Source: Hymenobacter sp. 15J16-1T3B
GTDB lineage: Bacteria; Bacteroidota; Bacteroidia; Cytophagales; Hymenobacteraceae
NCBI RefSeq assembly: GCF_020711235.1
Contig: NZ_JAJFAV010000003.1
Location: forward strand, 1-64,000
Length of the DNA: 64,000 nucleotides
Reading direction: 5' to 3'
Within the stretch, counting starts at the first letter, position 1. Each line of letters opens with the position of its first letter. Position numbers and translations under genes: made by a program. The notes below the pieces were generated by a model that saw nothing but the letters and a program-made list of their open reading frames with translations, did not search any database and was not told the DNA's origin. Positions 4,429 through 47,733 of the stretch are shown here, piece after piece.

Positions 4429-5172
4429 ATGAAGCAGGTATTACTCTCGCTGGGCTTTGTACTGCTGGGGCTGACCGCCCACGCCCAATCCATCTCCACG
4501 CTTTCGGGCAGCTTGGACCTGACGGACCCGGCCATTCCGGGTGACCGGCTGTTTCGCGACGCGACGCCGGGCCAATGCGCCACCACCAAAACCTACCCCG
4601 GAACCTCGTCCGGTACGGCTGGGGTGCACTACGACACCTACACTATCAGCAACAGCAGCGCGTCGGCTTCCACTTGCGTGACGATAACGCTGGCGGCCAA
4701 CTGCACCAACGCCACGGGCGCGGCGCTGTTTCTTACGGTGTACACGGGCAGTTTCTCGCCCACCAACCTCGCCACCAACTACAAATCCGATTTGGGGACC
4801 TCCCCGTCGGTTGGCACGTCCCAGGGCATGAGCGTGACGCTGGCGCCGAGCCAATCGGTGGTGCTGGTGGTCAACGGGCTCACGGCCACCGCCGTCTGCA
4901 ACGCCTACTCGCTGCAATTTTCCACGCCGGTGGTCCTGCCCGTCAGCGTGAGCAAGAACATCAAGCCCGTGCTGGCCGCCTACCCCAGCCCGGTGGTCGA
5001 CGTGCTGCACATCGAGGCGGCCAAAGCCGGGAGCTACACGCTTTTCAACGCAAACGGGGCCACGGTACGGCAGTTTACGGGTTCGGACGTGTCGTTGCGC
5101 GACCTGCCCGGGGGCGTGTACATGCTCCAGCAAAACGACACCAAAGCCACCACGCGCGTCGTCAAGCTCTAG
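4429..5172 (+). CDS. Secreted T9SS C-terminal domain protein, function unknown
   Basis: 247 aa. It starts with a clear signal peptide (MKQVLLSLGFVLLGLTAHAQ), which fixes the start at 4429 although the frame is open much further upstream. The body is Ser/Thr/Asn-rich beta sandwich-like sequence with four or more cysteines (GQCATTKTYPGTS, STCVTITLAANCTNATG) and resembles no enzyme I know. The last ~70 residues (VLAAYPSPVVDVLHIEAAKA, YTLFNANGATVRQF, LRDLPGGVYMLQQND) are a type A T9SS sorting domain. It is predicted to be secreted or anchored on the surface. It stands alone on the plus strand between hutH and hisS. Confidence 0.8.
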   Translation: MKQVLLSLGFVLLGLTAHAQSISTLSGSLDLTDPAIPGDRLFRDATPGQCATTKTYPGTSSGTAGVHYDTYTISNSSASASTCVTITLAANCTNATGAALFLTVYTGSFSPTNLATNYKSDLGTSPSVGTSQGMSVTLAPSQSVVLVVNGLTATAVCNAYSLQFSTPVVLPVSVSKNIKPVLAAYPSPVVDVLHIEAAKAGSYTLFNANGATVRQFTGSDVSLRDLPGGVYMLQQNDTKATTRVVKL

Positions 5173-5193
5173 CCCCGCCGGGCCCAATGCCAG

Positions 5194-5235
5194 ACCACCC
5201 GGCTCCCGCTGCGACAGCAGCCGGGGCCGGGTGGT
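5194..5235. terminator. Hairpin between convergent genes
   Basis: A 10-bp perfect outer stem (ACCACCCGGC/GCCGGGTGGT) with further pairing inside lies between the plus-strand T9SS protein and hisS, which converge. It could serve either gene; the U-tract is weak on both sides. Confidence 0.5.
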
Positions 5236-5308
5236 GGTGGTTTGGGGATAGTGCGGGGGCGGCAGCGGACGCCCCGCCCGGCAGCTCACCGGCCTAGGGT
5301 AGTGCCGG

Positions 5309-6709
5309 TTAGGCCAGGGCCTGCAGCGTAGCCACCACTTCGGTGGCGGGCACGGTTTGCTCCGAGCCCGCGCGCATGTCGCGCAGCTTCACCACGCCGC
5401 CCGCGCGTTCCTCCGAACCGGCCAGCAGCATAAAGCGGATGCCGCGCTTGTCGGCGTACTCGAACTGTTTTTTGAGCTTGCTGACCTCCGGGTACAGCTC
5501 GGCCGAGAGGCCCGCGGCGCGCAGCTGCCGCAGCAAGGGCAGCGCCGTGCCGCGGCCTTCGGCGTCGAAGTTGGCCACCAGGCAGAGCGGCGCGGCCACG
5601 GCGCCCTCCGGGAAGAGCTGGAGCTCCTCCAGCACGTCGTAAATGCGGTCGACGCCGAAGCTGAAGCCCACGCCCGAGAGGCCGGGCAGGCCGAAGGCGC
5701 CGGTGAGGTTGTCGTAACGTCCGCCGCCCGAGATGCTGCCCATCTGCACGTTGTTCACCTTCACCTCGAAGATGCAGCCGGTGTAGTAGCTCAGCCCCCG
5801 GGCCAGCGTCACGTCGAAATCCAGCCGCTCGAAGTGCTCGAAGCCGAAGTCCTGCAAGTACTGCTGCACCTCCGCCAGGTCCTGCAGGCCCTTGGCCGGG
5901 CCGGCCGCGGCGTCGGTCAGCACGCCGTCCTGCTTGAAGGCGGTGCGCAGCGCGGCCAGCTTCGCATCAAACGAGCCACCCACTTCCAGGTAGCCGAACA
6001 CCTGGTCGACGGCCTCCTGCGGGAAGCCGCGCTCCAGCAGTTCCTTCGTCACGCCCTCGCGCCCGATCTTGTCGAGCTTGTCGATGGCCACGAACAGGTC
6101 CGACTCGCGGCCCACGCCGCCCAGGGCCTGGTAGATGCCCGAGAGCACGCCGCGGTGGTTGATTTTGATGGTGAAGTCCGTCAGGCCCAGCGTCGACAGC
6201 ACTTCGTCGATCATCAGCACGATTTCGGCCTCGCAGAGCAGGGAAGTGGTGCCCACCACGTCGGCGTCGCACTGCACGAACTCGCGGTAACGGCCCCGCT
6301 GCGGCCGGTCGGCGCGCCACACGGGCTGAATCTGGTAGCGCTTGAAGGGCAGCGTGAGCTGGCCGCGGTTCATCACCACGTAGCGGGCGAAGGGCACCGT
6401 TAAGTCGTAGCGCAGGCCTTTTTCGGCCACTTTGGGCAGGATTTTCTTGGCGCCGGCCGTCAGGTCCTCGGCCGTCACGTCCTTGGCAAAGTCGCCGGAG
6501 TTGAGAATTTTAAAGAGCAGCTGGTCGCCCTCGTCGCCGTATTTGCCGGTCAGCACCGACAGGTTTTCCATGGTCGGCGTCTCCAGCGGGGCGAAGCCGA
6601 ACTTCTCAAACACGCGGCGAATCACGCCGAAAATATAGTTGCGCCGGGCCACCTGCACGGGACCAAAGTCGCGGGTGCCTTTCGGGATGCTGGGTTTCTG
6701 AACGCTCAT
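5309..6709 (-). CDS. hisS: Histidine--tRNA ligase
   Basis: 466 aa class II aminoacyl-tRNA synthetase that charges tRNA-His in the cytosol. It opens with KGTRDFGPVQVARRNYIF, the family start plus motif 1 region. Motif 2 is in VWRADRPQRGRYREFVQCD, the histidine-specific blocks GLSYYTGCIFEV and GGGRYDNL follow, and motif 3 is GFSFGVDRI. The C-terminal anticodon-binding domain starts near residue 370 (PLCLVANFDAEGRG). It is slightly longer than the ~420 aa of E. coli HisS, as is common in Bacteroidota. No operon partner is obvious. Confidence 0.97.
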   Translation of the reverse strand: MSVQKPSIPKGTRDFGPVQVARRNYIFGVIRRVFEKFGFAPLETPTMENLSVLTGKYGDEGDQLLFKILNSGDFAKDVTAEDLTAGAKKILPKVAEKGLRYDLTVPFARYVVMNRGQLTLPFKRYQIQPVWRADRPQRGRYREFVQCDADVVGTTSLLCEAEIVLMIDEVLSTLGLTDFTIKINHRGVLSGIYQALGGVGRESDLFVAIDKLDKIGREGVTKELLERGFPQEAVDQVFGYLEVGGSFDAKLAALRTAFKQDGVLTDAAAGPAKGLQDLAEVQQYLQDFGFEHFERLDFDVTLARGLSYYTGCIFEVKVNNVQMGSISGGGRYDNLTGAFGLPGLSGVGFSFGVDRIYDVLEELQLFPEGAVAAPLCLVANFDAEGRGTALPLLRQLRAAGLSAELYPEVSKLKKQFEYADKRGIRFMLLAGSEERAGGVVKLRDMRAGSEQTVPATEVVATLQALA

Positions 6710-6785
6710 TCGTCAGGGGAAACTCAAAATGTGGCCGCGAAGGTACAGCCCGCCGGGCACAGGGCCACCGGGTGGCCCGTAAACA

Positions 6786-6819
6786 ACGCAGGCCCGCCGG
6801 AACACCGGCGGGCCTGCGT
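6786..6819 (-). terminator. Terminator after the Ycf48-like secreted protein gene
   Basis: A perfect 15-bp GC-rich stem with a 4-nt loop lies 20 bases beyond the stop at 6838, just upstream of hisS. It separates the two minus-strand genes. Confidence 0.75.
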
Positions 6820-6837
6820 GGGTCGAGGCTATGTCTA

Positions 6838-8208
6838 TTACTGAATGACGAGCTTGTGCTGGGCTACGCCACTGGCCGAGCGCAGCTCCAGGGTGTAGAG
6901 GCCGGCTTTCTGCTGGTGCAGGTCGAGCAGGCCCAGGGTGGTGCGCGCGGCGGTGGCGTTCAGGGAAGTGCGGTACACTTCGCGGCCCAGCGCGTCGGTG
7001 ACGCGCACCTCGGCCGCCTCGGGCAGGCTCTTGGCCAAGCTGAGCGTGAACACGCCGTCGTGGCTGGGGTTGGGGTACACCGTCAGGGCCTGCTGCAGGC
7101 CCGCGTCGCGGCGGACGCTCTGCACGGTGCCGCTGAATTTGTTCACGCCGTTGCCCCCGAGGGTAGTGGGGTTGACGCTGCCCGACCACCCCAGCGCGTT
7201 GGAGACCATGTCGAGCGAGGTGTGGTTGAAGCTGGTTTCGATGCTGACCCAGGTGGCGCCGTTGTTGAGCGTGTACGCCGAACCCGCGTCGTTGACGCCC
7301 AGCAGGGCCAACGACGGCCCGGCCGTGATGTAGCCCCCGCTCACGCCGGGCAGGTTGTCGATGGCCACGGCGTGCAGCGGGCCCGTGTACGCCACGGCTG
7401 CCCAGGTGGCGCCGCCGTTGGTGGTGCGGCGCAGTTCGTAGTTAGAGCCCGTGGCGTTCGGGGCCACCAGCAGGCCGTTGTTGGCGTCGGTGAAGCTGAT
7501 GCCGGAGATGTCGCCGCTGGCGCCGCTGGCACTCACGGCCCAGGTGGCGCCGCGGTCGGTGGAACGGTACACCCGGCCGGCATCGGTCAAAAACCAGATG
7601 TTGTTGCCCACCACGGCCGGCCGGATGGTCGTGCCGATAAACGTGGTGGCGCCCAGTTCACCGGTCAGCTCCGCCGGCACGTTGCCGACGCGCGTCCAGG
7701 TCGTGCCGCCGTTGGCCGTGGTGTAAATCTCAAAGCCGGGCGTCGCGCCGTCCGGGTCGCCGGCGGCCACGCCCTCGTTGGCGTTGAAGAAGTGGACAAA
7801 GTTGGCGAAGCTGTCGGCGGAGGTAAAGGGGCTGCCGCCGGTTTGGGCCGTCCAGGTGCTGCCGCCGTTGGTGGTTTTCAGAATGCGGCTGCCCCCCGTG
7901 TTCGAATTATAGGTGGTAATCCAGGCCGTAGTGGCGTCCACTGCATCCAGGTAGGTCAGGTTTTCGTCGGGGCTCAAGCCCGTTACCGCCCCGGTGGTCC
8001 AGGTAGTGCCGTTAATCGTACGGGCCACGGCTACGTCGGTCCCGAGGGGCTCCATGGCCAGGGTCCACACCGTGTTGGCGTCGACGGCGTCGACGTGGGT
8101 AATTACCAGGCTGGGGTTGCTGAAGCCTATCGGCTGGTTGGTCCATTGGGCCTGGGCGGCCAGCGTAGTCAGGCTGAGGGCGGCCAGGGTCAGTAGTTGT
8201 TTTTTCAT
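6838..8208 (-). CDS. Secreted Ycf48/BNR-repeat-like protein with T9SS sorting domain
   Basis: 456 aa with signal peptide MKKQLLTLAALSLTTLAAQA. The body has recurring Asp-box-like motifs, among them TTNGGSTWTAQTGG, TANGGTTWTRVGN, STDRGATWAVSA and TTNGGATWAAV, spaced as in sialidase/BNR or Ycf48-type beta-propellers. The end (ALTVYPNPSHDGVFTLSLAK, VTDALGREVYRTSL, QKAGLYTLELRSASGVAQ) is a type A T9SS domain. It is a paralogue of the plus-strand protein at 19763, with the same layout and closely similar phrases. No catalytic residues are evident, so a surface-binding or structural propeller is likelier than a sialidase. Substrate unknown. Confidence 0.83.
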   Translation of the reverse strand: MKKQLLTLAALSLTTLAAQAQWTNQPIGFSNPSLVITHVDAVDANTVWTLAMEPLGTDVAVARTINGTTWTTGAVTGLSPDENLTYLDAVDATTAWITTYNSNTGGSRILKTTNGGSTWTAQTGGSPFTSADSFANFVHFFNANEGVAAGDPDGATPGFEIYTTANGGTTWTRVGNVPAELTGELGATTFIGTTIRPAVVGNNIWFLTDAGRVYRSTDRGATWAVSASGASGDISGISFTDANNGLLVAPNATGSNYELRRTTNGGATWAAVAYTGPLHAVAIDNLPGVSGGYITAGPSLALLGVNDAGSAYTLNNGATWVSIETSFNHTSLDMVSNALGWSGSVNPTTLGGNGVNKFSGTVQSVRRDAGLQQALTVYPNPSHDGVFTLSLAKSLPEAAEVRVTDALGREVYRTSLNATAARTTLGLLDLHQQKAGLYTLELRSASGVAQHKLVIQ

Positions 8209-38334: not shown

Positions 38335-38687
38335 ACAATTAGGGGAAAGTATCGGTAGGCGCTAAGTGGCGGTTTGGGGAAAAGGGAAACCTAAAAGCGC
38401 GGCACGGCGTTGAAGTTGGCCGCAAAGATGAACGAATAATCCATTGTGCAGCCCTGTGCTTACAGTAGGCTCCTAGCAACGCGCCATGTTCGCGCCGAGT
38501 TTCGCCCCGGTGAAAGTATTGCCCATCAGCACCCTTGCGGAGTCATATTTGACCCGCCCTCAACACAAAAGAATATATAGTAGCGCGCAACCGATGTCGT
38601 TTGCTACTTTTGTCGATACCGCCTGCCATGCCCGGCCGGCTTCCCCATGCCCTCATTGCGCTTCGGCGCGTCCCGCATCCCGCACAT
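38335..38687. other. Divergent intergenic region between topA and the chemosensory operon
   Basis: 353 bp with no gene. It carries a perfect TACTTTTG (38605-38612) for the plus-strand operon and a near-match CATCTTTG on the minus strand near 38425 that could serve topA. An AT-rich patch (CAAAAGAATATATAGTAG) lies at 38567-38584. Confidence 0.5.
38605..38612 (+). promoter_or_regulatory. -7 box of the chemosensory operon
   Basis: A perfect TACTTTTG. The -33 TTG is not seen at the normal spacing (an AT-rich patch is there instead), so the promoter may need an activator. The leader to the preferred ATG is ~70 nt. Confidence 0.45.
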
Positions 38688-41600
38688 ATGGCCACCGGTA
38701 AGAACAGCAAACCTGCTACGACGCCTACGCCCTCCGACGCTAATCTGCCCGAATCCAACGACGCCCCCGCTACGCCCGCCCGCAGCAGCGTAGGCTTGGG
38801 CGGCATGTTGGCGCGTACCACTTCGGACCTCACGCGCAAGCGCGGCGTGGCCCGCGGCGGCGCCAACGACTCGGCCGATCCGGATTACGTCAACGAGCAA
38901 CTCAACCGCGTGCTCTACGCGCTCGACGCCTTTAAAAAAGGCGACATCTCGGTGCGCCTGACCAAGCAGAACGACGACATCTTCGCCGAAATAGCCGAAG
39001 CCTACAACTCCATGGTGGAGATGATCGGCGGCGTGGGCGGCGAGGTGTCGCGCATCTCCAAAGTGGCCGGGGTAGAGGGTAACCTAAAAGCGCGCGCCTC
39101 CGGGGAAAACGCCACGGGCTTCTGGCGGGACATGATCAACAACATCAATGGCTTGGTGGACTCCATCGCCGTGCCGGTGTTGGAAGTGGGCAAGGTACTG
39201 AAGAACATCAGCCGGGGTAACCTGGACGAGTCGTTCCAGATTCCGGTGTCGGGCGACTTCAAGCTGATGGCCGAAACCATCAACAAAACCATCGACAACC
39301 TGAACGTCTTCGCCAGCGAAGTAACCCGCGTGGCGCAGGAAGTAGGTACCGAGGGTAAGCTGGGCGGCCAGGCCTCCGTACCGAACGTGGGCGGCGTGTG
39401 GAAGGACCTGACGGACAACGTGAACACGATGGCCTCGAACTTGACGAGCCAGGTGCGTGACATTGCCAACGTAGCCACGGCCGTAGCCCGCGGCGACTTG
39501 AGTCAGAAGATTACGGTAAACGTAAAGGGCGAGCTGCTCCAGTTGAAGGAAAACCTCAACCAGATGGTGGACTCGCTCAACCTCTTCGCCGGCGAGGTAA
39601 CCCGCGTGGCGCAGGAAGTGGGTACCGAAGGAAAACTAGGCGGCCAGGCAGTGGTGCCGGGTGTTGGTGGCGTGTGGAAAGACCTCACCGACAACGTAAA
39701 CAACATGGCCGCCAACCTGACGAGTCAGGTGCGCGACATTGCTAACGTGGCTACCGCTGTAGCAAAAGGTGACCTGAGCCAGAAGATTACGGTTGACGTG
39801 AAGGGCGAGCTATTGCAGCTCAAGATGAACCTCAACCAGATGGTGGACTCGCTCAACCTCTTCGCCGGCGAGGTAACCCGCGTGGCGCAGGAAGTAGGCA
39901 CCGAAGGCCGCCTCGGCGGTCAGGCCAACGTGCCCAGCGTGGCCGGTGTGTGGAAGGAACTGACGGACAACGTGAACACGATGGCCTCGAACCTGACCTC
40001 GCAGGTACGAGACATTGCCAACGTAGCAACGGCCGTAGCAAAAGGCGACCTGACCCAGAAAATCACGGTAGATGTAAAAGGCGAGCTGCTTCAGCTGAAG
40101 CAGAACCTTAACCAGATGGTGGACTCGCTCAACCTGTTTGCCGGCGAGGTAACTCGCGTGGCACTCGAAGTAGGCACAGAGGGTAAGCTCGGCGGCCAGG
40201 CCATTGTGCCGGGCGTCGGCGGGGTGTGGAAAGAGCTGACGGACAACGTAAACAACATGGCCTCGAACCTGACTTCTCAGGTGCGAGACATTGCCAACGT
40301 AGCTACCGCCGTAGCCCGCGGCGACTTGTCGCAGAAGATGACGGTAAACGTAAAGGGCGAAATCCTGGAGCTCAAGAACATCTTGAACCAGATGGTGGAC
40401 TCCCTCAACATCTTCGGTGACGAGGTAACCCGCGTGGCCCGCGAAGTAGGTACCGAAGGCAAGCTGGGCGGTCAGGCCGTCGTGCCCCGCGTCGGTGGTA
40501 CCTGGAAAGAGCTAACGGACAACGTAAACACCATGGCCTCGAACTTGACGAGCCAGGTGCGAGACATTGCCAACGTAGCAACGGCCGTAGCAAAAGGCGA
40601 CCTGACCCAGAAAATCACGGTTGATGTAAAAGGCGAGCTGCTGGATCTGAAGAACATTCTGAACCAGATGGTGGACTCCCTGAACATTTTCGCTGGCGAA
40701 GTAACCCGCGTGGCGCGTGAGGTAGGTACCGAAGGTATACTCGGTGGCCAGGCCAACGTGCCCAACGTAGGCGGGGTATGGAAGGATCTAACCGACAACG
40801 TAAACACGATGGCCTCGAACCTGACCTCTCAGGTACGAGACATTGCCAACGTAGCTACCGCCGTAGCCCGCGGCGACTTGAGCCAGAAAATCACTGTAAA
40901 TGTGAAAGGTGAGCTTCTTCAGCTCAAGGAGAACTTGAACCAGATGGTGGACTCGCTGAATACCTTCGGTGACGAGGTAACCCGCGTGGCTCGTGAGGTA
41001 GGTACCGAAGGCAAGCTGGGCGGTCAGGCCAACGTACCGAACGTTCGGGGTACCTGGAAGGAGCTGACCGACAACGTAAACACCATGGCCGCGTCGTTGA
41101 CCTCGCAGGTGCGAGACATTGCCAACGTAGCAACGGCGGTAGCAAAAGGCGACCTGACCCAGAAGGTATCGGTGGATGTGCGCGGCGAGATGCTCGAGCT
41201 GAAGAACATCCTCAACCAGATGGTGGACTCGCTCAACGTATTCGCCGGCGAAGTAACCCGCGTGGCGCAGGAAGTGGGTACCGAAGGCCGCCTCGGCGGC
41301 CAGGCCAACGTGCCGAATGTGTCGGGCGTGTGGAAGGACCTGACCGACAACGTAAACCGCATGGCTGCCAACCTTACCACGCAGGTGCGGGGTATTGTGA
41401 AGGTAGTAACCGGCGTATCGCAGGGTGACCTTACCCAGAAACTGACCCTGGAAGCCCGCGGTGAGGTGGCCGACCTGGCCGACACCATCAACCGCATGGT
41501 GGACGACCTGAACCGCTTGGCGCAGGAAGTGTCGCGTGTGGCCCGCGTAGCCGGGGTAGAAGGCAAGCTGACCGAGCGAGCCATGGTAACCGGGGTATCC

Positions 41601-43160
41601 GGCTCGTGGAAAGACATCGTGGATACGCTCAACGACCTGATCGAGTCCATTGCCTCGCCGGTACTGGAAGTGTCGCGCGTGGTGCGGGCCCTCTCGGAAG
41701 GCGACCTGACCCAGCGCGTAGAAGTACCCACCGCCGGCGACATCTACGCCATGGCCATGGCCCTGAACACCGCCGTGGACTCGCTCAACGAGCTGCTCGC
41801 GGAAATCAACGAGTCGTCGCTGGTAGTAGGGGCCTCGTCGGAAGAAATGGCCCAGAAAGGTCTGGAAATGAGCCGCGTCACGGTTGACGTGTCGCTGGCC
41901 ATGCAGCAGATGGCAGAGGGTGCCCAGAATCAGGCAATGAAGACTGACCAGGCCTTCAAACTGATCGAGGAAATCATGACGGCCACCAAGGAAACGGCCA
42001 ACAAAGCCGATGTGGTGAACAAAGCCGCCATCCTCGGGGAGCAAACCTCGCAGCTCGGTCTGAAAACCGTGGCCGAGGTGGTGAAGAACATGGAAGAAAT
42101 TTCCAGCGCTTCGGCCGGTACCGCCCGCACCATCGATGTACTGTCGGTTCGCTCGCAGGACATTTCCAAGTCGCTGGGCGTAATCACCGACATTGCCGCC
42201 CAAACCAACCTGCTGGCTCTAAACGCCGCCATCGAAGCTGCCCGCGCCGGGGAAGCCGGCCGTGGTTTCGCGGTAGTAGCCGAAGAAATCCGCAAGCTGG
42301 CCGAAGGCTCGCGCAAATCCGCCAACGAAATCAACACGCTGGTGGAGGATGTGAAAAAGGATACGGCTTCGGCCGCTGCGGCAATTTCGACCATGGAAGG
42401 CCGAGTGTTGAAAGGGAAGAACGCTACGTTCGAAGCGTCGTCGGCCTTTAAGAACATTGCCACTTCCTCGGGCGAGATTCTGCGCACTTCCCGCGACATT
42501 CTCACGGCTACCGAGGTGCAGAAAACCTCCATCGGCGACGTGGTGAAATACGTGGAAGAAGTGGTAGCCATTGCCGAGCAAACGGCGTCGGGTACACAGC
42601 AGGTGGCTTCCACGGCCAAGCAACTCAGCTCGTCGATGTCGGAACTGACGGCTTCGAGCCAGAAGCTGACCGACATTGCCGACGACCTACAGGTGGGCCT
42701 TTCGGCCTTCCAGTTGATGGACTACATGGCCGAGGACGTGTACTACGAGCCCGAGCCCGTACGTCCTGCTCGTCCGGTGCGCCGGCAGCCTATGATGCAG
42801 CAGACCGAAGCACCTGCGCCCCGCCCCGTGGGCCGCATGGCCGCCCGGCCTGCCGCACCGGCCGCGCCGCCCGTGACGCCCACGACCCCGCCTCGCCGCC
42901 CGGCCCGTCCGCTGCCGGCGCAGCAGCGCCAAGCTGCTGGCAATCAGAACGGCGCTTCGACCAACGCCGCGCCGACGCGTCCGATGCCGGCCCGTAAGGC
43001 AGCTCCGGCTTCGGCCGAACCGTCCGAGCCCACCATCCCGACCCCGCGGAAAGCTCCGGGACAACGCGCGGCCGCCGAGGCCAAAGCGAGCAAACCGGCT
43101 GACAACGCCGGGTCGAACAATGGTGCGAAGGCGCCGGCTCCCAAACAACGCAAAAAGTAA
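38688..43160 (+). CDS. Soluble poly-HAMP methyl-accepting chemotaxis protein
   Basis: 1490 aa from the ATG at 38688 (38628 is an alternative). No signal peptide, membrane helix or sensor domain is visible. Residues 1-70 are low complexity; ~72-1034 are about 21 alternating canonical ([20 protein letters not shown]) and divergent ([18 protein letters not shown]) HAMP units, including eight EVGTEG copies at a 92-residue period. Residues ~1035-1345 form a receptor signalling hairpin with the conserved tip [20 protein letters not shown] near 1173-1192, which binds CheA and CheW. A ~145-residue Pro/Ala/Arg tail ends the protein; no CheR-docking pentapeptide is seen. It heads the cheW-cheY-cheB-cheA-cheC operon. 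Confidence 0.92.
39318..41525 (+). repeat. 276-bp tandem repeat array coding for HAMP pairs
   Basis: Equivalent codons recur at exact 276-bp steps (39456, 39732, 40008, 40284, 40560, 40836, 41112, with a diverged unit at 41388). Units are highly alike at the DNA level, including long identical runs such as GACATTGCCAACGTAGC. The array is fully in frame and encodes the 92-residue repeat. Confidence 0.9.
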
Positions 43161-43237: not shown

Positions 43238-43777
43238 ATGCCTGAAAGTCAAGCGGCCGCCGATAAAAAAACCTCCAAGCCGGACGTGCCCGTGCAACTG
43301 ATCGTGTTCCGCCTAGCCGGCGAAGAATACGGGATTCGCATCGAGCAGGTCAAAGAGGTTACGCTCACGCCGGAAATTGCGCGCATGCCCAAAACGCCGC
43401 GTTTCGTGAAGGGCATTGCCAACCTGCGCGGCGACATCATTGCCATCATCGACTTGGAGGAGCGCTTCCGCTTGCGCACCGCCAACAACGAGCCGGTGAC
43501 GGGCGTCACGTACACCATGGCCATCGAAGCCAAGGATTATACCATCGGCATCATCGTGCGCGAAGTGCCGCAGCCCTTGTCTCTGTCGGCCGCCAGCATT
43601 GAAAAGGCCCCTGAATTTATCCAGGACCTGAACATCAACGACAAATACATCGAGGGCATCGCCCGGGTGGAAAACCGCATCATCATCGTGCTGGACATGC
43701 TCAAGCTGCTCACGCCCGAGGAAATCATGCAGCTCCGCCCCAAAGCCACATCTTCCGCCGCTGCCGAGCGTAGATAG
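43238..43777 (+). CDS. cheW: CheW-like chemotaxis adaptor
   Basis: 179 aa. Single CheW domain (VQLIVFRLAGEEYGIRIEQV, MPKTPRFVKGIANLRGDIIA, IIDLEERFRLR) that couples the receptor tip to CheA. A ~18-residue charged N-terminal extension and a ~15-residue C-terminal tail are extra. It lies 77 bp after the receptor and 47 bp before cheY, so one operon. The conserved NLRGDIIAIIDL strand is intact, so it should be a functional adaptor. Confidence 0.95.
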   Translation: MPESQAAADKKTSKPDVPVQLIVFRLAGEEYGIRIEQVKEVTLTPEIARMPKTPRFVKGIANLRGDIIAIIDLEERFRLRTANNEPVTGVTYTMAIEAKDYTIGIIVREVPQPLSLSAASIEKAPEFIQDLNINDKYIEGIARVENRIIIVLDMLKLLTPEEIMQLRPKATSSAAAERR

Positions 43778-43824: not shown

Positions 43825-44205
43825 ATGAAAAACCGCATCCTCATCGTAGACGACTCGTTCTACATGCGCACGATGCTGAAGAATATGCTCACCGACGCCG
43901 GTTACGACGTGGTGGGTGAGGCCGCCAACGGCCAGCAGGCCCGTGACCTGGCGACCGAAACCAAGCCCGACCTGATTACCCTCGACGTGATTCTGCCCGA
44001 TAACACCGGGCTGGAGGTGCTGAAGGATATTCGCCAGGAGCTGCCCGACGTGAAAATCGTGATGTGCTCGGCCGTGGGCCAGGAGGTAATCGTCAACGAG
44101 GCGCTGGAAAGCGGGGCTTCAGCCTACATCGTGAAGCCGTTTTCCGAGGACAAGGTGCTCGAAATCGTGGGCGGCGCGCTGCAGGACGGCGGCGCTTCGG
44201 CTTAA
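43825..44205 (+). CDS. cheY: CheY-type single-domain response regulator
   Basis: 126 aa, one receiver domain. The acidic pair is D9-D10, the phospho-acceptor D54 (DLITLDVILP) and the conserved lysine K104 (YIVKPF). The switch Thr is replaced by Ser (MCSAVGQ), a common variant. It should be phosphorylated by the CheA encoded three genes downstream. No flagellar switch genes are present, so its output target is not FliM; a gliding, pilus or other effector is possible but unproven. Confidence 0.95.
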   Translation: MKNRILIVDDSFYMRTMLKNMLTDAGYDVVGEAANGQQARDLATETKPDLITLDVILPDNTGLEVLKDIRQELPDVKIVMCSAVGQEVIVNEALESGASAYIVKPFSEDKVLEIVGGALQDGGASA

Positions 44206-44279: not shown

Positions 44280-45392
44280 TTGTTTAATACCCCCGTACTG
44301 CCTGCTCCCCTGACCATCCTGCTCGGCGATATGCCGGGCTTGATGCGCTTGGCGCTGTCCAAGCTGCTGCGGACCGACGCGAGCGTGCAGATTGTGGGCA
44401 GCACGGCTGGTCCCGACGACCTGATTGCTCAAGCCCGCCGTTTGCGGCCCGATCTGGTCATTACCGGTGAGCAGCCCGTTGCCAGCATGCAGCGGCTGGC
44501 GCAGTTTCACCGCGGCCCGGTGCTCCTGTATTCGGGCTACAGCCTGCCCGCGGCCGCTTTGCGCGAAGCCGCCCAGTGGGGCGTGTACGACCATTTCGGC
44601 CCGCTGCCGGCCCCGGCCGACCCCAATTACGGCTTCGTGCGCCGCGACTTGCTGCGCAAAGTGCACCAGTCGCGCGCGGTGGCTACGGCCGCCGTGCAGC
44701 GGCTGAGCGTCGCGAGCGGCTCGGTAGCCTTGGGCTTGGCGGGCCACGTGCTGAGCACTACGCCCCGGGGCATCGTCGTCATCGGCGGCTCGACGGGCGG
44801 GGCGGCGGCGGTGGAAACGGTAGTGCGCGGCCTGCAGCCGGGGCTGCGCTGGGCGGTTATCGTGGCCGTGCACCTGCCGGCGGCTTTCACTGCCTCGCTG
44901 GTGGAGCGGGTGCGCCGCGCGGCCTCGTTGCCGGTGGTGGAAGGCCGCGTTGGGCTGCGCCTGCAGGCCGGGCAGATTGTGGTCGTGCCGGGCGGCACCA
45001 ACTGGGCCGTGCGCGGCGAAATCGGCCAGTCGCTCTGGCTGCAGGAAGCCACCGAGCCCGCCGCCGGCCTCGACGAGCCCAGCATCGATCTGCTGATGAT
45101 TTCGGCGGCCCGGGCGGCGGCCACGCGCACGCTGGGCGTCGTGCTCACCGGGTTGGGCTGCGACGGCACAGCCGGCGCCGCCATGATTCGGCACCTGGGC
45201 GGCACGGTGCTGGCGCAAAACGAGCAGACCGCCGCCGTGTTTGCCATGCCCAAATCCGTTATTCAGGGCGGGCATGCTTCGGCCGTGCTGGCCTTGGAGG
45301 ACATGGCCCGCTTTATCAACGGCCACGTGCAACCGCTGCGGCCCGCCGCGCCGGTGCGCGTGTCACCCGCTATTCGTTCGTACTCCCGATGA
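44280..45392 (+). CDS. cheB: CheB-like methylesterase with degenerate receiver domain
   Basis: 370 aa if it starts at TTG 44280, the only start giving a full receiver-like fold (no early ATG; M18 is inside strand 1). The C-terminal esterase has the full triad: S171 (VVIGGSTGGAAAV), H198 (IVAVHLPAAFTASL) and D295 (LTGLGCDGTAG). The N-terminal receiver lacks the phospho-acceptor: where DLVLLDxxMP is expected it reads DLVITGEQP. So esterase activity is expected but not classical phospho-control. It overlaps cheA by ATGA, implying coupled translation. No cheR is present in the window. Confidence 0.88.
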   Translation: MFNTPVLPAPLTILLGDMPGLMRLALSKLLRTDASVQIVGSTAGPDDLIAQARRLRPDLVITGEQPVASMQRLAQFHRGPVLLYSGYSLPAAALREAAQWGVYDHFGPLPAPADPNYGFVRRDLLRKVHQSRAVATAAVQRLSVASGSVALGLAGHVLSTTPRGIVVIGGSTGGAAAVETVVRGLQPGLRWAVIVAVHLPAAFTASLVERVRRAASLPVVEGRVGLRLQAGQIVVVPGGTNWAVRGEIGQSLWLQEATEPAAGLDEPSIDLLMISAARAAATRTLGVVLTGLGCDGTAGAAMIRHLGGTVLAQNEQTAAVFAMPKSVIQGGHASAVLALEDMARFINGHVQPLRPAAPVRVSPAIRSYSR

Positions 45393-47023
45393 AGTCACGC
45401 GAACAGGAATACCGGGAGTTGTTTATGGCCGAAGCCCTGGAGGCTTACGACGCCATGAGCCAGCACATGTCGGTGCTGGAAAAGCGGCCCGAGGACGAGG
45501 CGGCGCTGAACGAAGTGTTCCGCTTGCTGCATAACCTCAAAGCCAACGCCCGCGCCATGGGCCACGACGCCATCGGCGAAGTGGCGCACCGCATGGAGAC
45601 CATCTTTGGGCAGATCCGCAGCAAGGAGCGCCCCTTCGCCGGCTCCATGGTGCCCGTGCTCTTCAGCGGCATCGACGTGCTCGGGGGCATGATCCGGGCG
45701 GTGGGAGCCAACCAGGAACTCACCGAAAACGTCCCGCTCATCGAAAACCTCGACCGGGTTATCGAGGGCGAAGAGCCGGTGCTGGTGGACGACGAATCGG
45801 GCACCGAGGAAGACGCCACCCGCAAGCTGGAGCTGTCGGACCTGGTCTACATCCCGATCAAGAAGCTCGACCACCTGCTCAACCTCGTCGGGGAGTTGAT
45901 CATCGACCGGGACCGGGTGCTGACCCTGGCCCAAGAAATCGGCGACACGACGCTGCAGAGCGTGACGGCCCACCTCAGCCGCCTCGCCGACGATTTGCAG
46001 TACTCCGTGATGGACGCCCGCCTGGTGGGCGTGGGCACCTTGTTCAACAAGTTTCCGCGGGTGGTGCGCGACGTGGCCACCGCTGAGCAGAAGCAAGTGG
46101 AGCTGACCATCAGCGGGCAGGACATCCAGATTGACCGCAACATCTTGCAGATCATCACCGATTCGCTGCTGCACTTGGTGCGCAACGCCATCGGTCACGG
46201 CATCGAAACGCCCGGGGAGCGGGTAAAAGCGGGCAAGCCGGAAATCGGCCAACTGACCCTGTCGGCCCAAACCGACCGCGACAACGTGCTCATCCGCATC
46301 AGCGACGACGGCCGCGGCGTGGACGTGGAGCGCGTGCGCCGCAAGGCCGTGGAGCGTGGGTTGCTCTCACGCGACGCGGCCAGCCGCCTCAACGAAACCG
46401 AAGTCCACAACTTACTCTTCGAAGCCGGCTTCTCTACGGCCGAGCAGGTCACCGAAATTTCGGGCCGCGGCGTGGGCCTCGATGTGGTGAAGCTCGCCAT
46501 CGACTCGCTTGGCGGCCAGCTGCGCGTGGATTCCCGCTTGGGGCAGGGCACCACCTTCACGCTGGTGCTGCCCACGTCCATTGCCGTAAAGGGCGCCCTG
46601 CTCTTCGAACTCGACGGGCACCCGTACGCCCTGCCGCTGATGCACACCGACTCGGTGGTGTCGTTGCAGCCGGAGAAGCTGCACGTGGTGGGCGGCACGC
46701 TGCTGGCCAAGGTGCTGACCGAAAACATTCCCGTCGTACGCCTGGCCGATTTGCTGGCCGACAACGACGACGCCCTGCCGCTGGCCAACCGCGCCGCGCT
46801 GGTGGGCGCGCAAGACATCATCATCACGAACTACAACGGCCGTAAATTAGGCCTGATTGTCGACCGATTCCTGCGCCAGCAGGACATCGTCATCAAACCC
46901 GTCAGCCAGCCGCTCGATATGATCGATCTGTTTGGCGGCGTTACCTTGCTCGGCAGCGGGCAGGTGTGCTTGGTACTCGACGTGCCGGCAATTACCCGCC
47001 TGTTTTTATCCCGCCGCCCATGA
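45389..47023 (+). CDS. cheA: CheA chemotaxis histidine kinase, short form
   Basis: 544 aa. P1/HPt domain at ~5-115 with phospho-acceptor H48 (VFRLLHNLKANARAMG). A short acidic linker replaces the P2 CheY-binding domain. P3 dimerisation follows (IPIKKLDHLLNLVGELIIDR). The P4 ATPase has an N box (LLHLVRNAIGHGIETPGER), G1 (ISDDGRGVD), GRGVGLDVVK and G2 (GQGTTFTLVLP). P5 is CheW-like (GALLFELDGHPYALPLMHTD). The N box reads NAIGHGIE where CheA usually has NAxDHGIE, an Asp-to-Gly change. It should phosphorylate the adjacent CheY under control of the poly-HAMP receptor. Confidence 0.94.
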   Translation: MKSREQEYRELFMAEALEAYDAMSQHMSVLEKRPEDEAALNEVFRLLHNLKANARAMGHDAIGEVAHRMETIFGQIRSKERPFAGSMVPVLFSGIDVLGGMIRAVGANQELTENVPLIENLDRVIEGEEPVLVDDESGTEEDATRKLELSDLVYIPIKKLDHLLNLVGELIIDRDRVLTLAQEIGDTTLQSVTAHLSRLADDLQYSVMDARLVGVGTLFNKFPRVVRDVATAEQKQVELTISGQDIQIDRNILQIITDSLLHLVRNAIGHGIETPGERVKAGKPEIGQLTLSAQTDRDNVLIRISDDGRGVDVERVRRKAVERGLLSRDAASRLNETEVHNLLFEAGFSTAEQVTEISGRGVGLDVVKLAIDSLGGQLRVDSRLGQGTTFTLVLPTSIAVKGALLFELDGHPYALPLMHTDSVVSLQPEKLHVVGGTLLAKVLTENIPVVRLADLLADNDDALPLANRAALVGAQDIIITNYNGRKLGLIVDRFLRQQDIVIKPVSQPLDMIDLFGGVTLLGSGQVCLVLDVPAITRLFLSRRP

Positions 47024-47097: not shown

Positions 47098-47733
47098 ATG
47101 GACCTGCTCATGAATGATCTGGAACGGGATATTATCCGCGAAATCCTGAATATCGGATTGGCGCGGGCCGCCGACTCGTTTGCAGCCATTGCCCAGGAAC
47201 GGGTGTTGCTGGAAGTGCCTAGCCTGGAGCTGGTGCGCGCCGGCGACATTCTCAAGCTTATCAGCAGCTACCAGAGCAGCCACGTCGCGATTCAATCCGA
47301 CATCAAAGGCGACTTCAACGGCACCACGCTGATGTTCTTTTCCGGTCAGCACGTGCAGCGCCTCTCCAAGGTGTGCCTGCGCATGGACGTGAGCGAGGAC
47401 CTGCAGATTAACGAGATGCAGGAGTCTTTGCTGCTCGAAATCAGCAACATCATCACCGGGGCCCTGGTCACCCAGCTGGCCAACATTCTCAAGGCCAAAA
47501 TCTACGGGGCCCCGCCGCGCACTGCCCACGGCAGCCTAGCCCACTCGCTCGACAGCCTGCTGGAAACGCATCCAAAGATGCAACCGCTGATTTTCTCGGT
47601 CATTACGCAGTTTTCCGACCAGAACAGCAACGTGGAGCTGCCGCTGATGCTGTTCTTCGACCGCGAAACCTTCGACAAGATCCTGACCATCATCCGGACC
47701 TACGACCTGCCCGGCAACGGCCTGCCCGCCTAG
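47098..47733 (+). CDS. cheC: CheC-family CheY-P phosphatase
   Basis: 211 aa. Two copies of the CheC phosphatase motif E-x2-N-x22-P can be read: E-I-L-N-IGLARAADSF..P in the first helix and E-I-S-N-IITGALVTQL..P in the middle, so both active sites look intact. CheC removes phosphate from CheY, the adaptation/termination step in systems lacking CheZ. It ends the chemosensory operon, 74 bp after cheA. The C-terminal ~40 residues (NSNVELPLMLFFDRETFDKI) fit the family's last strand and helix. Confidence 0.88.
   Translation: MDLLMNDLERDIIREILNIGLARAADSFAAIAQERVLLEVPSLELVRAGDILKLISSYQSSHVAIQSDIKGDFNGTTLMFFSGQHVQRLSKVCLRMDVSEDLQINEMQESLLLEISNIITGALVTQLANILKAKIYGAPPRTAHGSLAHSLDSLLETHPKMQPLIFSVITQFSDQNSNVELPLMLFFDRETFDKILTIIRTYDLPGNGLPA

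Follow-up and report, generated by a model that had tools for sequence, protein, structure and literature searches.

A Nik1-type HAMP array in the single chemoreceptor of Hymenobacter sp. 15J16-1T3B and its exchange with PAS domains among Cytophagales

Results

The chemoreceptor gene and its operon

The window analysed here is a stretch of 64,000 nucleotides from Hymenobacter sp. 15J16-1T3B (Hymenobacteraceae, Cytophagales), and it carries on its + strand a chemosensory operon that includes a gene (38688..43160) for a soluble cytoplasmic chemoreceptor (MCP) with a HAMP array. The start codon is a presumed one: the open frame begins with TTG at 38601, and the earliest fitting ATG lies at 38688. 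From its N-terminus, the protein comprises about 65 low-complexity residues ahead of the array, three divergent HAMPs (frame residues 95-239; 38883..39317) alignable to the N-cap found in poly-HAMP kinases of bacteria, eight canonical di-HAMP units of 92 residues each, with 16 HAMPs in all (39318..41525), a C-terminal cap di-HAMP (41526..41807) common to PAS-type MCPs of other Cytophagales, the MCP kinase-control hairpin (41808..42680) and a low-complexity basic C-terminal tail of 142 residues with a net charge of +15 (42732..43157). The hairpin was delimited by Pfam and by aligned length, the aligned stretch spanning 289 residues, as does that of the Thermotoga MCP 2ch7 (289). An MCPsignal match at E 6e-40, together with CheW and CheA in the operon, marks the protein as a methyl-accepting chemotaxis protein; MCPsignal alone stands behind the array, where a group III hybrid histidine kinase has HisKA, HATPase and receiver domains. 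No transmembrane segment was seen in the MCP by a simple hydropathy scan (the top 19-residue mean being 1.35), and no ligand-binding domain was detected in it by Pfam. Side matches to ATG17_like, SpoIIID, HTH_6 and PhoR are read as coiled-coil or overlap noise. A methylation-type site persists in the hairpin.

Behind the MCP gene, and likewise on the + strand, lie genes for CheW (43238..43777; Pfam CheW, 7e-28), a stand-alone CheY-type response regulator (43825..44205; Pfam Response_reg, 4e-30), the methylesterase CheB (44280..45392; Pfam), whose N-terminal part gave no Response_reg match in Pfam at E up to 1, CheA with its Hpt, dimerisation, ATPase and CheW-like domains (45362..47023; Pfam, start approximate) and a CheC/CheX-type phosphatase (47098..47733; Pfam). 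A divergent gene, presumably topA-type, lies upstream of the MCP gene, and one further conserved gene, which we take to be agmatinase-type, follows the CheC/CheX-type gene. The order topA (- strand), MCP, CheW, CheY, (CheB), CheA, CheC and agmatinase-type gene recurs at the named loci of the family, so that synteny also supports the assignment of CheW, and this conservation excludes an oddity of one strain.

Throughout the genome (6.33 Mb in 42 contigs), the only MCPsignal match is that in the array-MCP gene, and a single CheR match, within a frame of 1079 codons, falls on a different contig. Both SprA and GldL occur in the genome; a search of the genome for T2SSE ATPases gave no match, the control search being positive in 14/14 genomes. 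There are 18 HAMP matches in the genome, nine inside the MCP gene and nine at nine other places, and since the latter are all separate, no second array was seen.

The repeat array

Tandem Repeats Finder reported a single tandem array between 36000 and 46000, at 39303-41389, with a period of 276 and 7.6 copies. In the translated frame 38601-43157, self-identity is 80.5% at a lag of 92 residues and 81% at 184, and does not exceed 15% at any other lag from 20 to 299 that is not a multiple of 92. Eight units, beginning at 39318, 39594, 39870, 40146, 40422, 40698, 40974 and 41250, fill 39318-41525 exactly; repeat finder, Pfam, self-identity and a profile of the units all support them.

An earlier note on this DNA had described a 92-residue HAMP repeat at 39318-41525 inside a chemoreceptor. 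The repeats are indeed there, the three motifs it quoted occur in the translated frame, and the frame ends in an MCP hairpin. The repeat length was also correct, but a repeat comprises two HAMPs rather than one, because Pfam at E up to 1 gives 11 HAMP and 10 HAMP_2 stretches, along with one MCPsignal, in the MCP frame. An AlphaFold model of three units, of very low confidence (mean pLDDT 40.8), agrees, each unit having two helices along with two connectors; in a model of unit 8, cap and hairpin (pLDDT 63.7) the hairpin came out as one straight helix. The extent given in the note is that of the eight canonical units, whereas the whole array runs past it at both ends, from about 38883 to 41807, and amounts to 21 HAMPs: three N-terminal ones, 16 in the eight units and the C-terminal pair. 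The D-E-x-G motif is absent from residues 95-1069 of the MCP frame, and in this the array agrees with the divergent kind of poly-HAMP, described as being without DExG (PMC3570549).

Orthologues in Hymenobacteraceae

A genome scan for orthologues gave at least 78 loci among the best 80 matches. The loci listed come from Hymenobacter, Pontibacter, Adhaeribacter, Rufibacter and relatives, and include in addition one Planctomycetota MAG, one Okeania MAG and two Actinomadura kinases. Exactly one MCPsignal was found in each of 60/60 family genomes, a count that refers to MCPsignal, the array itself having been checked in the fetched loci; the open frame of the MCP has at least 1238 codons in 56 of the 60 and is shorter in four. 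With one MCP copy in every genome, a relic gene is unlikely. Canonical units were counted in the 59 loci that have N-cap and hairpin in one frame, 15 of 74 being left out for want of either, and number 4 (1 locus), 5 (1), 6 (9), 8 (24), 9 (16), 10 (1), 12 (6) or 13 (1). The spacing of units is 92 in 473/473 steps at the 74 loci listed, and this exact phase across orthologous loci rules out a chance or low-complexity repeat. Mean column identity of the units is 86% (15 sequences, three labelled phyla). Strong gene conversion between units was also ruled out, internal units being 83% alike within a protein, 85% alike between species at the same index and 81% at other indices; they are thus not strongly homogenised.

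At least 71 loci have CheW, CheY, CheA and CheC all found. Among the 71 listed, CheB lies between CheY and CheA in 40 and is missing in 31, where the gap between CheY and CheA measures 4-238 bases. Where CheB is retained, as at 44280-45392 in the window, it diverges faster than CheA (about 30-49% against 56-76% identity to the window proteins, two closest relatives excluded). At least one CheB domain, hybrids included, occurs in 60/60 family genomes, and no CheR match was obtained in 9/60. A CheR frame of 276-285 codons, which is the size of a stand-alone CheR, occurs in 15/60, none of them in the genus of Hymenobacter sp. 15J16-1T3B.

In many species of the family, the classical adaptation system of CheR and CheB is not complete. 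One genome (G166), whose MCP shows 90% identity over the part running from unit 8 through the hairpin, has no CheR, and its sole CheB lies about 2 kb behind the MCP; the classical methylation cycle, as usually drawn, is therefore impossible there. Together with eight further family genomes, it has CheB without CheR, and CheB may there act as a deamidase or have another role. Loss of adaptation may nonetheless not be general, because the methylation-type site remains in the hairpin of Hymenobacter sp. 15J16-1T3B. With this site, with CheB in every family genome and with CheR of stand-alone size in a quarter of them, adaptation may still operate in some members of the family.

Exchange of PAS block and array across Cytophagales

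When the cap and hairpin were used as a query against 241 genomes of the same order, 92 matched, and 20 matches were fetched. The PAS-type set (n = 20) consists of 19 fetched matches, mostly better-scoring ones from other families, plus the MCP of Persicobacter (L122); the one remaining fetched match (L181) is array-type, with 79% identity in the hairpin. All 20 of these homologues from other Cytophagales families contain PAS domains by Pfam, with 2-13 PAS_3 stretches each, and a Nik1-type unit was found in 0/20. Their hairpins are 41-53% identical to that of the array-type MCP, a HAMP_2 match adjoins the hairpin in 18/20, and in the alignment of the two types homology starts in the cap di-HAMP. 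Behind the PAS-type MCP, CheW was found in 15/20 loci, CheA in 13/20 and both in 12/20, the order in those 12 being CheW, CheY, CheA. At one locus (L171) CheA is the only Che match, and at three (L178, L179 and L180) the MCP is followed by at least 7.5 kb free of Che matches; some of the stretches behind PAS-type MCPs end at a contig edge. Three Cytophagales MCPs (L176, L177 and L180), with no predicted membrane segment, have 10-13 tandem PAS domains by PAS_3 count.

In the hairpin tree the array type forms one clade (99/99), nested in a larger group that also takes in PAS types (91/91); support for uniting the PAS types by themselves is only 63/73. Since PAS is spread more widely, the PAS state presumably came first. 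Because PAS sensors occupy the place of the array in homologues, the array is, as far as domain order can tell, most likely an input module, and the signal-transmission rod of the earlier note becomes doubtful as a full account of it. The exchange places the array in the input position, but sensing by the array is not thereby proven. One genome of another family of the order (G464) has an array-type MCP at 78-79% identity (L181/L193), with its array units in two frames, for which transfer, a split gene and a sequencing error are alternatives.

It could also be that the array is a structural ruler, a rigid spacer fixing how high, or how far apart, the receptors of a cytoplasmic lattice stand, with sensing left to a partner or to the N-terminal tail. 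Receptors of unequal length can join one lattice. The variation from 4 to 13 units at constant phase is what a modular spacer would show, and the lack of a Pfam ligand-binding domain fits as well. The place of the array is however held by PAS sensors in homologues, the column identity of its units is higher than a spacer would seem to need, and in Nik1 of Candida (CaNik1) removal of HAMP pairs alters the fungicide response and removal of all HAMPs activates Hog1, as described in PMC3848655. We thus consider a pure ruler rather unlikely, and prefer to see the array as an input module.

The basic C-terminal tail

The tail has a net charge of +5 or more in 73 of the 74 array-type family loci listed, the remaining one (L065) having +4, and a basic tail occurs in 0/20 PAS-type relatives. 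The array-type rows are one lineage, and the contrast therefore counts as about one event; outside the 74, the array-type protein L181 of the other family has a tail of net +1 only. The window tail might allow docking to the nucleoid or to a polyanion. A receptor anchored in the manner of FrzCD, in which the basic tail would be a tether to DNA or another polyanion and the array would control clustering as the FrzCD di-HAMP does, would be consistent with the association of tail and array. FrzCD binds the nucleoid via a positively charged tail (PMC5716589), and its di-HAMP limits oligomerisation (PMC12077210). Apart from the single lineage behind the contrast and the weakly charged tail of L181, the position of the tail, C-terminal and not N-terminal in the window, speaks against the analogy, and we regard such anchoring as unlikely; it is compatible with the array being an input module rather than exclusive of it.

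Other array-MCPs and the kinase arrays

Array-MCPs were also found on two contigs outside Bacteroidota by their labels. The locus of a Planctomycetota MAG (L085, 4305-9725) has 13 Nik1-type units followed by an MCP hairpin, with matches to CheW, CheY, CheB, CheA and CheC behind it. That of an Okeania MAG (L086, 5069-10175) has four units and a hairpin, and its gene may be split, because the preceding frame (5069-7225) also holds a unit-like motif. As the contigs (19.9 kb for L085, 72.5 kb for Okeania) come from MAGs, the taxon labels may be binning errors. Both hairpins are far from the Hymenobacteraceae clade in the hairpin tree, where the branch of L085 is very long (3.6), and one clade for L085 and the family was not rejected by the AU test (p 0.11). 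In a tree of N-caps, whose root is arbitrary, L085 stands beside the MCPs. Separate fusions cannot be firmly claimed because of the long branches of L085 and L086.

Bacterial kinase arrays can be aligned with the MCP array along the full 736 residues of its eight units, with identities reaching 73.7%, and 177 plasmid records match the eight-unit stretch. The profile of the window units scored 149-157 bits against 17 kinases, with the highest-scoring unit taken for each, and 151 bits against the array-MCPs L085 and L086, compared with 26-35 bits for three other poly-HAMP MCPs, 25 for an ordinary membrane MCP (L095), 34 and 59 for two PAS-type MCPs, and 16.1, 5.0, -1.2 and -2.1 for four ordinary HAMP proteins of the genome. 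The closest PDB chains were 9trk and 9trj, both named 'histidine kinase, Gcn4p' (E 2e-83 and 2e-39), with Aer2 far behind at 0.0001.

The earlier note had called the repeat Nik1-type and had named, as what would refute this, a profile match no closer to Nik1 HAMPs than to generic ones. The comparison, made with bacterial arrays only, does not refute it as far as these go: kinase arrays stand far above the four ordinary HAMP proteins of the genome and the three other poly-HAMP MCPs, which sets the window unit in a specific subfamily of HAMP pairs, with bacterial kinases as the members compared; the length of 92 aa per pair also agrees with CaNik1 as published (PMC3848655). The module is not fungal only, since bacterial kinases of the same build, the poly-HAMP kinases AskA, AskB and Amb07 of myxobacteria, have been published (PMC7643160), and the closest named sequences found for the repeat are bacterial. 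That the array is portable, as the note also proposed, is well borne out: the same units feed histidine kinases as well as MCPs of Hymenobacteraceae and of Planctomycetota-binned and Okeania-binned contigs.

The resemblance to Nik1 raises the question of whether the array reads the osmotic state of the cytoplasm, glycerol or a related stress, and so is an osmosensor, or a sensor responding to fungicides, akin to Nik1. The shared length of the HAMP pair with CaNik1 (PMC3848655) would be in keeping with this, as would the link of AskA and AskB to ambruticin and glycerol responses (PMC7643160). In M. xanthus, however, ambruticin is reported to have bound AskC and not the poly-HAMP kinases AskA or AskB (PMC7643160). 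The osmotic response of Aspergillus TcsC, as described in PMC11253588, needs a 208-aa N-terminus outside the HAMPs, in the place of which the window protein has only its short low-complexity stretch, and no osmotic gene was found among the conserved neighbours compared. The osmotic role put forward in the earlier note is hence not supported, and we hold a sensor of this kind to be quite improbable.

Discussion

A Nik1-type array of 21 HAMPs stands ahead of the hairpin of the single MCP in Hymenobacter sp. 15J16-1T3B, in the position that PAS domains hold in homologues of other Cytophagales families. The reading we favour, and to which we would give about an even chance of being right, is that the array has replaced an older PAS block, that it acts as the input, and that CheA and CheY signal from it to surface behaviour, likely by way of the type IX secretion system (T9SS). 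The capped run of eight di-HAMP units would have taken the place of the tandem PAS block in an older Cytophagales chemoreceptor. A cytoplasmic cue or a partner protein could then change the proportions of the HAMP conformers in what would be a stiff, dimeric rod, the signal being relayed through alternation of these conformers, as has been suggested for Aer2, and the cap di-HAMP would hand this change to the hairpin. CheA, coupled through CheW, would determine how far the stand-alone CheY is phosphorylated, and CheC would act as the phosphatase. Roughly estimated from helix lengths in the three-unit model, the 21 HAMP layers, at about 2.4 nm each, would make a rod of 50 nm, which with some 22 nm for the hairpin would give a cytoplasmic lattice of unusual height. 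Alternatively, sensing could be the task of the short N-terminal tail or of a partner encoded elsewhere.

The output would be a surface behaviour, most plausibly one of the type IX secretion/gliding motor. Two points favour the T9SS-type motor over other candidates: type IV pilus ATPases gave no match in the genome, and in Flavobacterium a CheY-like domain binds GldL, that of PorX being described in PMC10951265 (the T9SS motor and PorX are also treated in PMC12239597). By analogy with PorX, the motor is our best guess. SprA and GldL are general parts of the T9SS, and their presence does not show gliding. A bolder proposal would be that HAMP arrays sense by themselves, that the Nik1-type array reads the state of the whole cytoplasm and steers T9SS behaviour, in some species without methylation adaptation, and that its fusion to MCPs arose more than once; taken as a whole, this seems to us doubtful.

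Poly-HAMP MCPs and Nik1-type arrays are each already known. As far as was searched, what is new is the combination of array and MCP, its sole use throughout a family and the swap between PAS block and array. No paper on an array-MCP fusion or on chemoreceptors of Hymenobacter was among the matches listed by title and start of abstract, a search whose scope mostly left aside subscription journals, and the repeat strings were not found in the literature searched. For the HAMP arrays of group III kinases, whether they sense or relay is described as unclear (PMC3848655), although the action of phenylpyrroles depends on these kinases, by a direct or an indirect route; the drug is said not to act on the kinase directly (PMC6433957). 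The interchange of array and PAS block ahead of the same hairpin type is a natural experiment on whether the array senses or only relays, and it offers a clean comparison, with the same type of hairpin, the same CheA and CheY and two kinds of input. It matters as well that a bacterial family has the array form as its sole MCP, and that this form serves a chemosensory pathway in which type IV pilus ATPases are absent and CheR or the operon CheB is missing in many species.

Comparison with known systems

Like the fungal group III hybrid kinases (Nik1/Os-1/Bos1/TcsC), the window protein has N-terminal tandem HAMP pairs and no membrane domain (PMC3848655, PMC3418262). CaNik1 is described as having nine HAMPs, with four pairs of 92 aa, against 21 HAMPs in the window MCP; the pair is of the same size as the window unit, a comparison by published length (PMC3848655). 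The output differs, being a histidine kinase with receiver in group III kinases and an MCP hairpin in the window protein. The bacterial poly-HAMP hybrid kinases, such as those of Sphingobium (L124), Sinorhizobium (L126) and Streptomyces (L125), have the same 92-aa units; typical units of such kinases are 72-79% identical to the MCP unit consensus. Their N-cap can be aligned with that of the family MCPs, although in the aligned kinases it has a GRPLKGEFLR-like stretch that the family MCPs are without, and their output is a kinase.

Among chemoreceptors, the membrane-bound poly-HAMP MCPs L134, L135 and L136, from distant members of the phylum, have tandem HAMP pairs ahead of an MCP hairpin as in the window, but they have transmembrane segments by hydropathy and belong to another HAMP subfamily, to which their low scores with the unit profile point. 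Aer2 of Pseudomonas aeruginosa is, like the window MCP, a soluble MCP with concatenated HAMPs (PMC3570549); it differs in having few HAMPs, of another subfamily (24 bits, as against 281 for chain 9trk), and a PAS sensor in addition. FrzCD of Myxococcus xanthus is likewise a soluble MCP; it has a charged tail as well as a di-HAMP, and controls surface motility (PMC12077210, PMC5716589), but the di-HAMP is its only one and it is served by a methyltransferase, FrzF (PMC2535941). In the PAS-type soluble MCPs of other Cytophagales, such as that of Persicobacter, cap and hairpin are homologous to those of the array type, but these proteins have PAS domains where the window MCP has its array and end without a basic tail.
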